From Clostridiales bacterium (lineage in GTDB: Bacteria; Bacillota; Clostridia; Christensenellales; Borkfalkiaceae): a stretch of 64,000 bases of DNA. The notes under the pieces are model-generated. The model saw only the letters and a list, made by a program, of their open reading frames with translations. It ran no database searches and was not told where the DNA came from. Where the stretch lies: NCBI GenBank assembly GCA_015055945.1, contig SVHH01000002.1, forward strand, positions 124,001 to 188,000, read 5' to 3'. This document shows, piece after piece, positions 1 through 13,616 of this stretch; the first letter of the stretch is position 1; each line of letters opens with the position of its first letter. A program made the translations under genes and the position numbers.

Positions 1-516
1 CCCGAACAAATTCAAAAACGCGTAAAAGAACTTGCGGACCAAATCACGCTAGACTATTCAAGCGTAGACAACACTATCCGCCGCCCCGTGTTTATTTGCA
101 CCTTAAAAGGCGCTGTATATTTCTTTGCCGACCTTACCAAGAATATCAAACGCCCGATTATGCTTGATTTTGCTAAACTTTCAAGTTATCGCAACGGCAC
201 TGTTAGCGGTGAGATGGAAATGCAAAGCGACATTACAACTGATATTGAAGGCAGAGACGTTATTATCGTTGAAGATATTATCGACAGCGGTAAAACTTTA
301 AAGTTCTTTGTAGAACTTCTTCAAAAGCGCAATCCTAAGTCAATCAAGATTTGCTGTTTCCTTGATAAAAAAGAACGCCGTGAAGTTGATATGGAAGCCG
401 ATTACGTTGGCTTTGATATTCCCTGCGGTTTCGTTGTAGGTTACGGTCTTGACTACGCTGAAAAGTATAGAGAATTACCCTACCTTGCAGAAGTTATCGA
501 CCCGTCAAAAGCGTAA
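1..516 (+). CDS. hpt: Hypoxanthine phosphoribosyltransferase, 5' end outside window
   Basis: Cytosolic purine-salvage enzyme that joins hypoxanthine or guanine to PRPP. The frame is open to the left edge, so the gene is cut by the window; the track start at 88 is an internal GTG. 171 codons are visible. The PRPP-binding signature VEDIIDSGKTL lies near the middle and the C-terminal YRELPYLAEV is typical of the family. In many Firmicutes hpt neighbours tilS and ftsH; here ftsH is about 40 kb away. It converges on truA across a shared terminator. Confidence 0.93.
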   Translation, partial: PEQIQKRVKELADQITLDYSSVDNTIRRPVFICTLKGAVYFFADLTKNIKRPIMLDFAKLSSYRNGTVSGEMEMQSDITTDIEGRDVIIVEDIIDSGKTLKFFVELLQKRNPKSIKICCFLDKKERREVDMEADYVGFDIPCGFVVGYGLDYAEKYRELPYLAEVIDPSKA

Positions 517-3996: not shown

Positions 3997-7542
<3,546 letters not shown>

Positions 7543-8741: not shown

Positions 8742-9758
8742 ATGAATAAGGCGCTTAAAAAAACTTTGATTATTATCGCTTGCGTCGTTTTATCTTTAGG
8801 GCTTATTTTGCTCTGCGCAATAGGTTACTTTAGATTGCCTGTAAACGACTATTACAAAAATTCTCAACAAGCATTCGTTATCCCTGGGCTTGACGACGGT
8901 TACGTTCCACAAGGATTTTGCTATGACCAAGAAGAAAATTGCTTTTTAGCAACGGGATATATGAACGACCACTCTTGCTCGCCCGTATACGTTATCGATA
9001 AAGAAAGCGGCAAGAGCGACAAAATGGTTTATCTTAAAAAACCCGACGGCTCTGATTACACTGGGCACGGTGGTGGCATTGCGCAATGGAAAAATTATAT
9101 CTATATTGCCGACGGTGATGAACACGCCCTTTACGTTTACGATTATAATCAATTAAAGGCAGCGGAAAACGGCGGTGCTATCACTTCTATCGGCACTTTC
9201 GGTACGGAAAACTCTAAAACCGATTACGTAAAACCGTCTTGCGTGGAAGTTTACGGCGACAAAATCGTTATCGGCGAATTTTTCCGCGAAGGCTCTTACC
9301 CCACACCCGACGCGCACAAAATCACCACCCCTAACGGCGACAAAAACACCGCGCTTGCGATAGAATTTAGTTTGGACGAAAGTTTTGAGTTTGGCATTAA
9401 CCCCGCGCCCGACAAGGCTTACTCTTTGAGAGAACAAGTGCAAGGCATAACTTTCTATAACGGAAAGATGTTCCTTTCAACTTCTTGGGGCTTATCTTTC
9501 TCACACATTTTCGTTTACGATTTAGAAAAATGCACGACCAGCACGATGACCGCGCTCGGCAAAGAAGTTCCGCTTGTTTACCTTGACGGCGCTTCACTCG
9601 TTAAAGATATGAAAATTCCGCCTATGAGTGAAGAAATGGCTATCGTTGACGGAAAACTTTACGTTTCTTGCGAATCAGCATCAAATAAATACATCTTTGG
9701 TAAACTTACTGGTGGCAAATGGTGTTACGCAACCGACCTAAGTAAATACGGAATTTAA
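8742..9758 (+). CDS. Membrane-anchored extracytoplasmic protein, propeller-like, unknown function
   Basis: 338 aa. One N-terminal hydrophobic segment (about residues 7-29) after KKT acts as signal anchor; the rest is predicted outside the cell. Repeated short strands with Gly-Asp turns (VPQGFCYD, GGGIAQWKNYIYIADG, VQGITFYNGKMFLSTSWG) suggest a beta-propeller or similar repeat fold. No catalytic motif is recognised. It stands alone with its own promoter and terminator. Confidence 0.82.
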   Translation: MNKALKKTLIIIACVVLSLGLILLCAIGYFRLPVNDYYKNSQQAFVIPGLDDGYVPQGFCYDQEENCFLATGYMNDHSCSPVYVIDKESGKSDKMVYLKKPDGSDYTGHGGGIAQWKNYIYIADGDEHALYVYDYNQLKAAENGGAITSIGTFGTENSKTDYVKPSCVEVYGDKIVIGEFFREGSYPTPDAHKITTPNGDKNTALAIEFSLDESFEFGINPAPDKAYSLREQVQGITFYNGKMFLSTSWGLSFSHIFVYDLEKCTTSTMTALGKEVPLVYLDGASLVKDMKIPPMSEEMAIVDGKLYVSCESASNKYIFGKLTGGKWCYATDLSKYGI

Positions 9759-9933: not shown

Positions 9934-9982
9934 ACAAAAAACAAGAAATAAAAAAGGCTTTATGCCAAAAGGAGAAATTCTT

Positions 9983-10828
9983 ATGAAGAAATTTTTAACA
10001 CTTTTATTATCTTTGGTAGTTGCGTTAACCGCTTGTGTTGGTTTAACCGCTTGTAACCCCCCTGAAGATACGAACAAACCCGTTATCGTTAGCGGTATTA
10101 CCTTAATTGAAGAACAATATGGTATCGCTGCTAAAAAGGGTAACGACGCTTTGATTTCAAAAGTTAACGATGCTTTAATCGCTTTGGCTGATGGACAAAT
10201 GAAGACTATTGCTAACACTTACGGCTTAGCAAGTGAAATCGCAGTAACTTCTACCACCACTAACCCCAAGGCTGAAGCAACTGACGATAGTTGGGATAAA
10301 ATCGTTACTAAAGGTAAAGTAATTATCGGTTACACTATCTTTGCTCCTATCGCTTACGATGTTGTTAACGACCAACCCACTAAGGGTTATGACATTGAAC
10401 TCGCTAAAGCAGTTTTCGCTCAATTAGATCCTAACATTGAAGTTGAATTCTTCAAAATCGAATGGAGTGCAAAAGAAGCAATGCTCGAAGCGGGCACTAT
10501 CGACCTTGTTTGGAACGGTCTTACTATTACCCCTGCTCGTTCAGAAGAAATGTGTATTTCTATCCCTTATCTCAACAACAAGCAAGTTGCAGTTGTTATG
10601 AGCAAAAACGCTGAAAAATACAGCACTATTGACGGTATGAAAGATGCTATCACCGGTGCTGAAGACGGTTCTGCTGGTGAAGAACAAATCGCTGCAAAAC
10701 AAATCGGTTCTGAATACATTAAGTGCAAATCTCAATTAGATGCTTTCAATATGCTCAAAACCGGTACTTTACAAGTAATCGTTATCGACTCTGTAATGGC
10801 TAACTATTACATTTCTTTAGAAGACTAG
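9983..10828 (+). CDS. Amino-acid ABC transporter binding lipoprotein, apparently circularly permuted
   Basis: Extracellular SBP_bac_3-type receptor for a polar amino-acid ABC importer, 281 aa. The start at 9983 (MKKF) is chosen over 9962 because of AAAAGGAG upstream. Signal peptide and lipobox LTAC (Cys24). The order is odd: residues about 38-82 (ITLIEEQYGIAAKKGND... to ...IANTYGL) resemble the usual last strand and helices of this family. The usual beginning (SWDKIVTKGKVIIGYT, about 103-118) follows, then GYDIELAKAVFAQL and ITPARSEEM. The protein stops at DSVMANYYISLED, where the normal C-terminal part would begin. No remnant of that part lies before the permease gene. Confidence 0.9.
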   Translation: MKKFLTLLLSLVVALTACVGLTACNPPEDTNKPVIVSGITLIEEQYGIAAKKGNDALISKVNDALIALADGQMKTIANTYGLASEIAVTSTTTNPKAEATDDSWDKIVTKGKVIIGYTIFAPIAYDVVNDQPTKGYDIELAKAVFAQLDPNIEVEFFKIEWSAKEAMLEAGTIDLVWNGLTITPARSEEMCISIPYLNNKQVAVVMSKNAEKYSTIDGMKDAITGAEDGSAGEEQIAAKQIGSEYIKCKSQLDAFNMLKTGTLQVIVIDSVMANYYISLED

Positions 10829-10851: not shown

Positions 10852-11535
10852 ATGGAATTTGTTGAAATAATACAGATGCTTTTAGATGGGTTTGGCAAAA
10901 CGCTTTTGCTTTTTGCCATAACCCTTATTGCATCTTTACCCCTTGGATTATTGATTTCTTTCGGTTCAAGATCTAAATTTTTACCTGTAAAATGGTTTTG
11001 TAGAGGGCTTGTTTGGGTTATTAGAGGTACGCCGTTGATGTTACAGATACTTGCTGTTACCCTTATCCCTTATTACGTTTTTAGAATAGGAAACTCTGAC
11101 ATCACTTCTTTTTTAGATATTAAAATGAAGTGGTTGTTGTTTTCTTACGCGGCAATAGCATTTATTATCAACTATGCGTGCTATTTTTCGGAAATTTTCC
11201 GTGGCGCAATAGAGAGCGTGCCAAAAGGTCAATATGAAGCAGGTAAGGTTTTGGGTATGACCAAAAACCAAATCTTTAGAAAAGTTATTCTTTTCCAAGT
11301 TATTAAAAAATCTTTAGCACCAGTAAGTAATGAAGTTATCACTTTGGTTAAAGATACGGCTCTTGCATCAGTTGCAGGCGTTTTAGAACTTTACACCACT
11401 GCTCAATCGTTGGTAAACACTTACGTTGTTTTAACGCCGCTCCTTTACGCTGCTATTTTCTATTTGATTTTCAACGGTCTTTTAACCTTGCTTTTCGGCT
11501 TTATCGAAAAGAAATTTTCTTTCTATTCGGAGTAA
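10852..11535 (+). CDS. Amino-acid ABC transporter permease (HisM/GlnP type)
   Basis: Inner-membrane channel subunit, 227 aa, about five hydrophobic segments. The family hallmarks RGTPLMLQI and the EAA-loop region GAIESVPKGQYEAGKVLGMTKNQIF are clear. It is 23 bases after the binding-protein stop and 6 bases before the ATPase, so it is part of the same transcript. Only one permease is encoded, which implies a homodimer. Confidence 0.95.
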   Translation: MEFVEIIQMLLDGFGKTLLLFAITLIASLPLGLLISFGSRSKFLPVKWFCRGLVWVIRGTPLMLQILAVTLIPYYVFRIGNSDITSFLDIKMKWLLFSYAAIAFIINYACYFSEIFRGAIESVPKGQYEAGKVLGMTKNQIFRKVILFQVIKKSLAPVSNEVITLVKDTALASVAGVLELYTTAQSLVNTYVVLTPLLYAAIFYLIFNGLLTLLFGFIEKKFSFYSE

Positions 11536-11541
11536 AAACCT

Positions 11542-12393
11542 ATGGCTTATCTTGAAATTAAAAATTTTAATAAAAGTTTTGGTAATACCGAAGTTTTGAA
11601 AGGTATTGACCTTGAAATGGAAAAGGGCGAAGTCGTTTCTATTATCGGCTCTTCAGGTTCTGGTAAAACCACTCTGCTTAGATGCATTAATTTCTTAGAA
11701 ACCGCAGACAACGGTCAAATGCTTTTGGACGGTGATATCCTTTTCGATAGCGAAACCGCTAAAAAGGATAACGACGCTATTTTGAGAGAAAAACGCTTAA
11801 ACTTTGGGCTTGTTTTTCAATCTTTTAACCTTTTTCCGCAATACAGCGTTATTAAAAACATCACGCTTGCACCAACTCTTCTTCTTAACGACAAGTTAAA
11901 AGTATATAAAAAGCAGTTGAAAGACCAAAAACTTTCTTCTCACGATATAAAGGCTAAACTCCACGATTTTAAGGAAGAACAAAAGAAAATTATCGACGCT
12001 GACGCTGAAGAACTTCTCGTTAAAATAGGACTTACTGAAAAGCGCGACAATTACCCTTGTGAATTATCGGGCGGTCAATGTCAGCGTGTGGCTATTGCAA
12101 GGGCGCTTGCCTTAAAACCTAAAATTTTATGCTTTGACGAACCGACTTCTGCTCTCGACCCCGAACTTACGGGCGAAGTTTTAAAGGTTATTAAATCTTT
12201 GAAAGACGAAGATAGAACTATGATTATCGTTACGCACGAAATGGGCTTTGCTAAGAACGTTTCTGATAAAATCGTGTTTATGGCGGACGGCGTTATCGAA
12301 GAAGCGGGCAACCCCGTTCAAATTATCGAAAACCCCAAGTCTGAAAAACTTAAAGCCTTCCTTCACGGTGTTTCTAATAAGGACGGTGAATAA
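11542..12393 (+). CDS. Amino-acid ABC transporter ATP-binding protein with charged insertion
   Basis: ATPase of the importer. Walker A GSSGSGKT (about 36-43), Q-loop VFQSFNLFP, signature LSGGQCQR and Walker B ILCFDEPTSALDP are intact. At 283 aa it is about 40 residues longer than usual. The extra part (about 116-155, lysine/glutamate rich, helical in character) lies between the Q-loop and the signature, in the helical subdomain that contacts the permease. The next gene starts two bases after its stop. Confidence 0.95.
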   Translation: MAYLEIKNFNKSFGNTEVLKGIDLEMEKGEVVSIIGSSGSGKTTLLRCINFLETADNGQMLLDGDILFDSETAKKDNDAILREKRLNFGLVFQSFNLFPQYSVIKNITLAPTLLLNDKLKVYKKQLKDQKLSSHDIKAKLHDFKEEQKKIIDADAEELLVKIGLTEKRDNYPCELSGGQCQRVAIARALALKPKILCFDEPTSALDPELTGEVLKVIKSLKDEDRTMIIVTHEMGFAKNVSDKIVFMADGVIEEAGNPVQIIENPKSEKLKAFLHGVSNKDGE

Positions 12394-12395
12394 AA

Positions 12396-12662
12396 ATGTC
12401 TGGCGATATTAAAAATTCATACGGCGAACTCTATAAAGCCGTTCTTAACCTTAAAACCGAAGAAGACTGCAAGGCGTTTTTCAACGACCTTTGCACGATG
12501 AAAGAACTAGATTCTATGGCGCAGCGCATAACTGCTGCAAAACTTTTGCTCTCGGGTGAAACTTATGAGCAAATTATAAAGAAAACGGATATTTCTTCCG
12601 CAACCTTATCCCGCGTTTCACGCTGTGTTAAATACGGTGAAGGTTATAAAAAATTTCTTTAA
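12396..12662 (+). CDS. TrpR-like repressor, YerC/YecD family
   Basis: 88-aa DNA-binding protein. EEDCKAFFNDLCTMKELDSMAQRITAAKLL and the helix-turn-helix SSATLSRVSRC match the TrpR superfamily in its YerC/YecD form. It is translationally coupled to the ATPase gene and closes the operon. A TrpR relative cotranscribed with an amino-acid importer suggests that it senses the transported amino acid and shuts its own operon through the paired palindromes at 9877 and 9912. Tryptophan or another aromatic amino acid is possible but not shown. Confidence 0.88.
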   Translation: MSGDIKNSYGELYKAVLNLKTEEDCKAFFNDLCTMKELDSMAQRITAAKLLLSGETYEQIIKKTDISSATLSRVSRCVKYGEGYKKFL

Positions 12663-12785: not shown

Positions 12786-13616
12786 ATGGAACAAATTTAC
12801 AACTTTTTTGATATGAAAATGCCAAGACCCACTAATTACGGCTGGTTTCATATCTTGTTTATTTTAATTGCTATTTCCGCAACCGTTCTTTTATGCGTAT
12901 TCTTCAAAGACGCTAAAGATAAGATTTTTAGAAGAATTATGCTTATAAGTTGGCTTACTATGGTAATTTTAGAAATTTATAAGCAATTAAACTATTCTAT
13001 CAGTTTTCCCGACGGCACTTTTACTTGGGACTATCAATGGTACGCTTTCCCCTATCAATTCTGTTCAACACCCCTTTATGTCTTGCCGTTTTTAGCGTTT
13101 ATGAAAGAAGGCAAGGTTAGAGACTTTTTTGAAGCGTATATTTCAACCTTTTCCCTTTTTGCTGGGTTAGTGGTGTTTATTTACCCCAACGACGTGTTTA
13201 TCAAAACTATAGGCATAAATATTCAAACAATGGTACACCACGGTTTACAAATCGTTTTAGGCGTTTATTGTGCCGTTTACAATAGAAAGAAACTTAACTT
13301 TAAGTATTTCTTAAAGGCTATCCCCGTGTTTATGGCACTATTAGTTATTGCCGTTATCTTAAACGAAACTGCGGGCGCATATATTAAGACCGCTTTTGAT
13401 GAAACCTTTAATATGTTTTATATCAGCCGTCTTTTTCCTTGTACTCTGCCAGTAGTAAGCCTTTTCTATCCACCAGTACTGCCTTGGTTTTTATTCTTCT
13501 TGGTGTACTCGGTAGGTTTTTGCTTGGCGGCAACCGTAATTTTCTATATCACTTTAGGAATAATGAAACTTGTTTATCATTTAAACGCAAAACATTCTAA
13601 AAAAGAGAACGCTTAA
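12786..13616 (+). CDS. YwaF-like polytopic membrane protein
   Basis: 276 aa with about seven hydrophobic segments. Patterns of the YwaF (TIGR02206) family are seen: an early WFHILF, the central YQFCSTPLYVLPFLAF (compare HLCS in the family), MVHHGLQIVLGVY, and an ending with NMFYISR...PVLPWF. The function is unknown in the family. It starts a two-gene operon with a YhhN-like gene. A larger relative lies at 53.2 kb. Confidence 0.75.
   Translation: MEQIYNFFDMKMPRPTNYGWFHILFILIAISATVLLCVFFKDAKDKIFRRIMLISWLTMVILEIYKQLNYSISFPDGTFTWDYQWYAFPYQFCSTPLYVLPFLAFMKEGKVRDFFEAYISTFSLFAGLVVFIYPNDVFIKTIGINIQTMVHHGLQIVLGVYCAVYNRKKLNFKYFLKAIPVFMALLVIAVILNETAGAYIKTAFDETFNMFYISRLFPCTLPVVSLFYPPVLPWFLFFLVYSVGFCLAATVIFYITLGIMKLVYHLNAKHSKKENA

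Follow-up and report, generated by a model that had tools for sequence, protein, structure and literature searches.

The permuted gene and its operon

The window, by which we mean the whole 64,000-nucleotide stretch of contig SVHH01000002.1 analysed here, carries on its plus strand an open reading frame (9983–10828) that encodes a protein of 281 amino acids, begins MKKFLTLLLSLVVALTACVGLTAC and is closed by a TAG stop. We place the start at 9983 rather than at 9962, because the AGGAG stands 8 nt ahead of the ATG at 9983. The protein matches the amino-acid solute-binding protein (SBP) family SBP_bac_3 (PF00497) with 76.3 bits (cut-off 26.4) in two stretches, and it contains both the pocket Ser/Thr and the pocket Asp, which contact the ligand in known structures of the family. 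The genes around it and the parts of the protein are collected in Table 1.

Genes for the SBP, the permease and the ATPase adjoin one another in all 15 of the loci compared. The Trp-repressor-like gene lies directly 3′ of this ABC cassette, is kept there in several relatives and may regulate the operon. The upstream marker gene is presumably PFOR, to judge by its sequence alone. A 338-residue frame with a hydrophobic N-terminal stretch, at 8742–9758 (+), is also present, at 55% identity, in locus L024 (SVIP01000002.1, Clostridiales bacterium SIG412), and had no Pfam match at E 0.001. Downstream of the operon, 12786–13616 (+) encodes a membrane protein of the TMEM164 family (PF14808, 47.7 bits).

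Table 1. Genes and protein parts at the permuted SBP locus, in window coordinates.
Feature	Position	Strand	Basis
PFOR-like gene, upstream marker of the orthologous locus	4042..7542	+	tblastn synteny in L024, L025, L199, L200
Ribosome-binding site AGGAG	9970..9974	+	8 nt 5′ of ATG, read from sequence
Lipoprotein signal peptide, residues 1–24, lipobox GLTAC closing with Cys24	9983..10054	+	sequence, regex, AF2 helix 2–24
Tether linker, residues 25–30, past Cys24	10055..10072	+	pLDDT <50 at residues 25–33
Moved segment, residues 31–84 (hinge strand 2 + lobe-1 C-terminal helices)	10073..10234	+	canonical HMM 178–231; phmmer; AF2 elements
New linker from old C-terminus to old N-terminus, residues 85–102	10235..10288	+	alignment
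Original lobe-1 N-part + hinge strand 1 + lobe 2, residues 103–278	10289..10816	+	canonical HMM 1–172; Pfam; phmmer
New C-terminus, final residues LED (279–281) + TAG stop	10817..10828	+	sequence
ABC permease (BPD_transp_1), same operon	10852..11535	+	Pfam PF00528, 67.1 bits vs cut-off 26.4
ABC ATPase, same operon	11542..12393	+	Pfam PF00005, 112.9 bits
Trp-repressor-like regulator	12396..12662	+	Pfam PF01371, 76.8 bits; synteny

Segment order of the window protein

In canonical members of the family the N-part of lobe 1 comes first, followed by lobe 2 and then by the C-part of lobe 1, an order from which the window protein departs. Against a reference profile of 235 positions built from 13 canonical relatives, its residues 31–84 match positions 178–231 (25 bits) and its residues 103–278 match positions 1–172 (175 bits), and every segment is therefore present once, with the order swapped, in a chain that stops at the end of lobe 2. 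A phmmer comparison with PDB sequences likewise gave two swapped pieces for the best-ranking chains, 4ohn, 3hv1 and AncQR 4zv1; in 4ohn, the N-terminal three quarters match residues 97–280 of the window protein and the C-terminal part matches its residues 40–79. A chance or low-complexity match of the moved segment was ruled out by shuffling, as residues 25–104 alone score 28.4 bits against the canonical profile while the best of 2000 shuffles scored 6.2 bits.

At the level of sequence, these alignments demonstrate a chain that runs from the lipid anchor through hinge strand 2 and the lobe-1 C-part, a linker, the lobe-1 N-part and hinge strand 1 to lobe 2. The first-pass annotation, which had put the displaced C-terminal segment at residues of about 38–82, the usual start near 105 and the end after VMANYYI, proved correct to within a few residues. 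The linker at residues 85–102 resembles in alignment that of cut-B relatives (NPxAxATDxSW; the cuts are defined below). Because the order is C-part, N-part, lobe 2, we treat the protein as a circular permutant derived from SBP_bac_3 and not as a canonical member; as judged from its sequence, the circular permutation of the window gene, within a known amino-acid SBP family, is genuine and natural.

Predicted structure

AF2 models were obtained for the window protein (cut A; pLDDT 85.6, pTM 0.76) and for a cut-B protein, L025 (pLDDT 86.2, pTM 0.80), both built on alignments of little depth (5 and 6 sequences, respectively) and without PAE. In the former, the moved segment is predicted as a strand and two helices (E40–51, H55–68, H72–79), with block means of 88–97 across residues 41–90. 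By alignment with canonical members, E197–204 reads as hinge strand 1 and E40–51 as hinge strand 2 in the model, so that cut A would keep one covalent hinge connection. From the predicted secondary structure together with the segment order we infer that lobe 1 is contiguous and that a single covalent hinge, in place of two, connects the lobes. The new ends had been proposed to fall near the inter-lobe crossover, and this is borne out by the modelled termini, which adjoin hinge strand 2 (E40–51) and follow the last helix of lobe 2 (H270–280).

Failure of residues 38–82 to complete lobe 1 in a predicted structure would have refuted the permutation, and no such failure is apparent in the model. 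Residues 41–90 are modelled with high confidence, and a solved Venus-flytrap chain, 5jkq (PfVFT1), aligns across the old C-terminus/N-terminus junction in both models, over 210 residues within 52..270 for cut A (Z 13.6, rmsd 4.6) and 184 residues within 95..291 for cut B (Z 13.8, rmsd 4.4). Without a direct superposition on lobe 1, these alignments support, without proving it, the reading in which lobe 1 is completed by the moved segment. The junction of the cut-B model is also crossed by OpuAC 3chg (Z 9.0, rmsd 4.8, 193 residues), 5nxx (Z 8.9, rmsd 4.4, 190 residues) and the ATP phosphoribosyltransferase 11te (Z 9.0, rmsd 4.0, 166 residues); the ranges for chorismate mutase 8cq3 and 8pnj start from 95–96, with only 137 residues aligned. 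The rows that Foldseek and VIA-align gave for canonical SBPs are mostly confined to residues ~100–281 (cut A) and 142–291 (cut B). We read this restriction to part of the chain as due to aligners that preserve chain order, and these rows neither support nor exclude the modelled place of the moved segment.

Four cut sites among the relatives

The window gene had been treated as a single case, a view that did not survive the search of related genomes. A first search of 41 of these already contained matches with further segment orders, and of 192 classified relatives 86 were canonical and 106 permuted (33 A, 32 B, 25 C and 16 D). Relatives were classified by the positions on the canonical HMM at which their chains start and end, using ORFs from the fetched loci, and fell into discrete groups. 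Chains of cut A mostly start at 153–184 and end at 165–178 (the outlier L155 starts at 136), those of cut B start at 122–139 and end at 129–136, those of cut C start at 22–33 and end at 22–28, and those of cut D start at 101–119 and end at 98–109. By inference from the models, cuts A and D would lie at inter-lobe crossovers, B would divide lobe 2 and C would divide lobe 1. Recurrence of these four cut sites across relatives rules out that the window gene is a lone oddity.

In the taxonomic order of the window, at least 61 of the 396 genomes searched hold a verified permuted gene (36 across the A/B/D junction, 25 with cut C), and other families of the same class and phylum hold permuted SBP genes too. 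Both this figure and the permuted shares are lower bounds, because many of the matches that looked canonical were left unfetched; nor were the 192 rows sampled at random, putative permutants having been fetched ahead of the others. Before the count we removed L189 and L195, both truncated at a contig end, together with two L156 rows that were duplicates; L022, L023, L027–L029 and L032 were left uncounted as repeats of other loci, and the rows L058 and L060 were counted although identical, as they come from different genomes.

Several single loci deserve mention in their own right. The window genome has a second SBP_bac_3 gene (L023:883-1740 (-), on G000:C17) of another subfamily, also of cut A and ahead of its own permease. 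Tandem, strongly diverged cut-B paralogues of 326–348 residues with longer inserts are found at L198:1545-3578 (-) and L156:833-2831 (-), adjoining a canonical (L198) or cut-B (L156/L007) SBP gene; they are possibly specialised or non-binding. At L132:872-2335 (+), a canonical SBP is fused in frame to what by eye is a permease-like C-terminal half, in a frame of 488 residues.

Probable origin by duplication

Overall, the best explanation, to which we assign a probability of roughly 85%, is that the window gene encodes a permuted, tethered SBP of a polar-amino-acid ABC importer that arose through permutation by duplication. We infer three steps. An SBP gene would first have been duplicated in tandem, the two copies would then have been fused in frame, and the outer parts would finally have been lost behind the retained signal peptide.

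The first two stages can be seen in present-day genomes. Two canonical SBP genes lie three bases apart, as stop-to-stop frames, in L196, and a canonical SBP gene adjoins two cut-B genes in L198. A 528-residue lipoprotein frame at L197:391-1974 (-) holds two complete SBP domains, with few joining residues and one signal peptide, and no permease domain; its halves are identical at 182 of 231 aligned positions (79%). A second species has a fused double SBP (L214) of 92% identity to that of L197, and such a fusion is present in two of the nine genomes of its family. The clade of the window gene itself yielded no fused-double intermediate, L197 and L214 belonging to another subfamily and another genome family; the tandem and fused-double stages are thus documented in the lineages of other genomes and not in that of the window. 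With this restriction, the fused double SBP and the adjacent tandem genes, again in other genomes, lend support to the route that the first-pass annotation had suggested, namely duplication and then removal of the outer portions. Had homologues carried a further complete domain that this assembly alone lacked, this would have told against a permutation; none of the relatives did.

The rearranged order could instead stem from recombination or fusion of two different SBP genes rather than of one duplicated gene. Neighbouring SBP paralogues do occur in some genomes, as with the canonical and two cut-B genes of L198, and without separate segment trees such mixing is not excluded. We nonetheless hold it unlikely, given that two species have a tandem duplicate fused into one frame, the halves of which are 79% identical, and given that all permuted forms keep each segment once, with a discrete cut, and that the linker joining the old termini resembles the canonical mature N-terminus.

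Number of permutation events

Permutation by duplication appears to have happened repeatedly in this family, at four cut sites. On a 194-row IQ-TREE, for which every row was rearranged to the canonical order, at least 23 changes between the five states are required, and the well-supported branches alone force at least five (A), three (B), three (C), four (D) and four (canonical). This was a quick tree with SH-aLRT support only, 57 of its 190 inner branches are open and its root is unknown, on which the directions of topology change hinge. Minimal changes numbered 17 on an earlier 153-row tree and 20 on a thinned 90-row tree, from which the long branches L002_2545, L155, L144, L147, L143 and L145 and the fused halves had been left out.

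The count of events would be inflated if there had been only a few permutations, followed by horizontal transfer and reversion. The labels are indeed strongly clustered on the tree (23 changes as against a mean of 96.0 when shuffled), and the genome families with cut B are far apart, as transfer could bring about. Yet transfer leaves the cut site unchanged, and the supported branches of the SBP tree force several changes for each cut; moreover, forcing every permuted row of the 90-row set, 48 in number, into a single clade cost 431 log units and was rejected (p-AU 2.9e-9). The orthologous locus adds a further point. The order PFOR, SBP, permease, ATPase is common to the window, L024, L025, L199 (G010) and L200 (G016), and within this one PFOR-linked locus the SBP has cut A in the window and L024 and cut B in L025, L199 and L200. 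On this evidence, we consider a history of few events improbable. Two further loci were compared, L206 (G381), in which the same SBP–permease–ATPase–TrpR cassette carries cut C, and L202 (G173), which has cut A.

As to the window's own lineage under repeated permutation, the group of L001, L024 and L031 has a support of 100 and lies inside a well-supported clade of 23 rows, 18 of which are B, four A and one C. A change from B to A is therefore the simplest reading, although the root is unknown and the inner forks are partly open. As the cut A of the window most parsimoniously arose within a cut-B clade, its direct ancestor was probably already permuted, with cut B.

Selection and signs of function

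L024 and L031, from independent assemblies, provide the homologues of the same order that had been called for, L031 having cut A as in the window gene and L024 sharing with it 84% identity, the segment order and the neighbours. Between the window gene and L024, dN is 0.114 and dS 0.571 (NG86), and for the moved segment (residues 34–84) the values are 0.071 and 0.523; the window gene is under purifying selection, with dN/dS about 0.2. That the window frame is a pseudogene undergoing decay or a product of misassembly, as might be feared of a draft genome in 18 contigs, is scarcely credible and is rejected on this selection and on the same order in the independently assembled L024, the frame, ribosome-binding site, signal peptide and operon being moreover all intact and cut A recurring in 33 of the 192 rows. 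The original proposal of a natural permutation in an intact operon thereby finds backing in the sequence, in L024 and L031, in the purifying selection on the gene and in a confidently predicted AF2 model.

Across all topologies, every one of the 192 rows retains the pocket Ser/Thr, and 189 of them retain the pocket Asp. The lipobox pattern was present in 20/20 ORFs of cut A, 25/29 of B, 24/26 of C, 5/5 of D and 63/75 canonical ORFs, counts that refer to an earlier ORF set from before the removal of two duplicates; some of the misses keep a Cys acceptable to a looser pattern. The permuted forms look functional from these sequence features, their ligand, binding and transport being inferred only, in the absence of binding or transport data. 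From its pocket residues, operon and purifying selection, we suppose that the window protein would bind an amino acid between its lobes, close and deliver it to the neighbouring permease.

Implications

Natural circular permutations are, as a rule, regarded as ancient one-off events that lack intermediates. We regard the present case as new, as a variant of a known family, because the same family seems to have been re-cut repeatedly at four sites and intermediate stages are still visible. Canonical, tandem, fused-double and four cut forms coexist, so that each stage on the route to permutation is open to testing, in many replicates. The family offers a natural test bed for protein survival after re-wiring, and its forms with a single hinge (A, D) provide experiments of nature on Venus-flytrap closing, of relevance to sensors built on these scaffolds. 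Permutation may be recurrent and still active in the amino-acid SBPs of this class, with genes repeatedly doubled, fused and trimmed until even orthologous operons have come to differ in cut site, and the new orders being kept for shifting the tether from lobe 1 to lobe 2 (B, D) or for a single hinge (A, D), which would tune docking and closing; this we put forward only tentatively and with more doubt than conviction.

Ordinary profile searches split or truncate permuted SBPs, and we infer that such genes are therefore likely to be annotated as partial SBPs. NCBIfam models matched four tested permuted proteins only partly and below their cut-offs.

Comparison with known systems

No report of natural permutation in SBP_bac_3 or the amino-acid SBPs was found in the open-access literature, which is weak evidence of absence; nothing on it in SBP_bac_3 was found in PMC2861598, PMC12667903, PMC10601554, PMC13199436 or PMC7683729. 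The earlier statement that no natural permutation had been described thus stands for SBP_bac_3 itself, but other classes of solute-binding protein have published cases (PMC4990184; PMC2395249).

The SBP_bac_3 proteins of Streptococcus pneumoniae (4ohn, with His) and S. thermophilus (3hv1) and the AncQR protein (4zv1) agree with the window protein in their segments, in the residues of the pocket, in the lipoprotein signal and in the ABC operon. Unlike these canonical members, the window protein is rotated, its lobe 1 is, by inference, contiguous, and one hinge connection appears to be gone in cuts A and D.

Among natural permutants, Treponema pallidum Tp0684/MglB-2 (Type Ic/Cluster Bc) is a tethered ABC binding protein that binds ligand, and its authors speculate on tethering (PMC4990184). 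It has a type I/cluster B sugar fold, a single permuted form and an extra fourth crossover, whereas the window family is of amino-acid type II and has four cuts. Membership of the window protein in this MglB-2-like class was rejected, as SBP_bac_3 is the only Pfam family above cut-off and the PDB matches are amino-acid SBPs and their relatives. CPSARST related by permutation the glycine-betaine-binding proteins 2B4L, 1R9L and 1SW1, molybdate-binding proteins and CysB (PMC2395249). These cases are deep (<24% identity) and structure-based, with no recent series, intermediates or change at an orthologous locus, unlike the window family. Plasmodium falciparum PfVFT1, the chain that aligns across the junction of both our models, differs in being eukaryotic and has only 12–13% identity.

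Clifton and colleagues, to judge by the title of their 2017 paper, reportedly engineered circularly permuted amino-acid SBPs to improve sensors; such permutants are man-made, unlike the natural window family. Outside the solute-binding proteins, DNA methyltransferases are listed among proteins with natural permutation (PMC2395249), and for GTPases (cpRAS) more than one segment order has been reported. Both have permuted order within a family, as here, but in unrelated folds.
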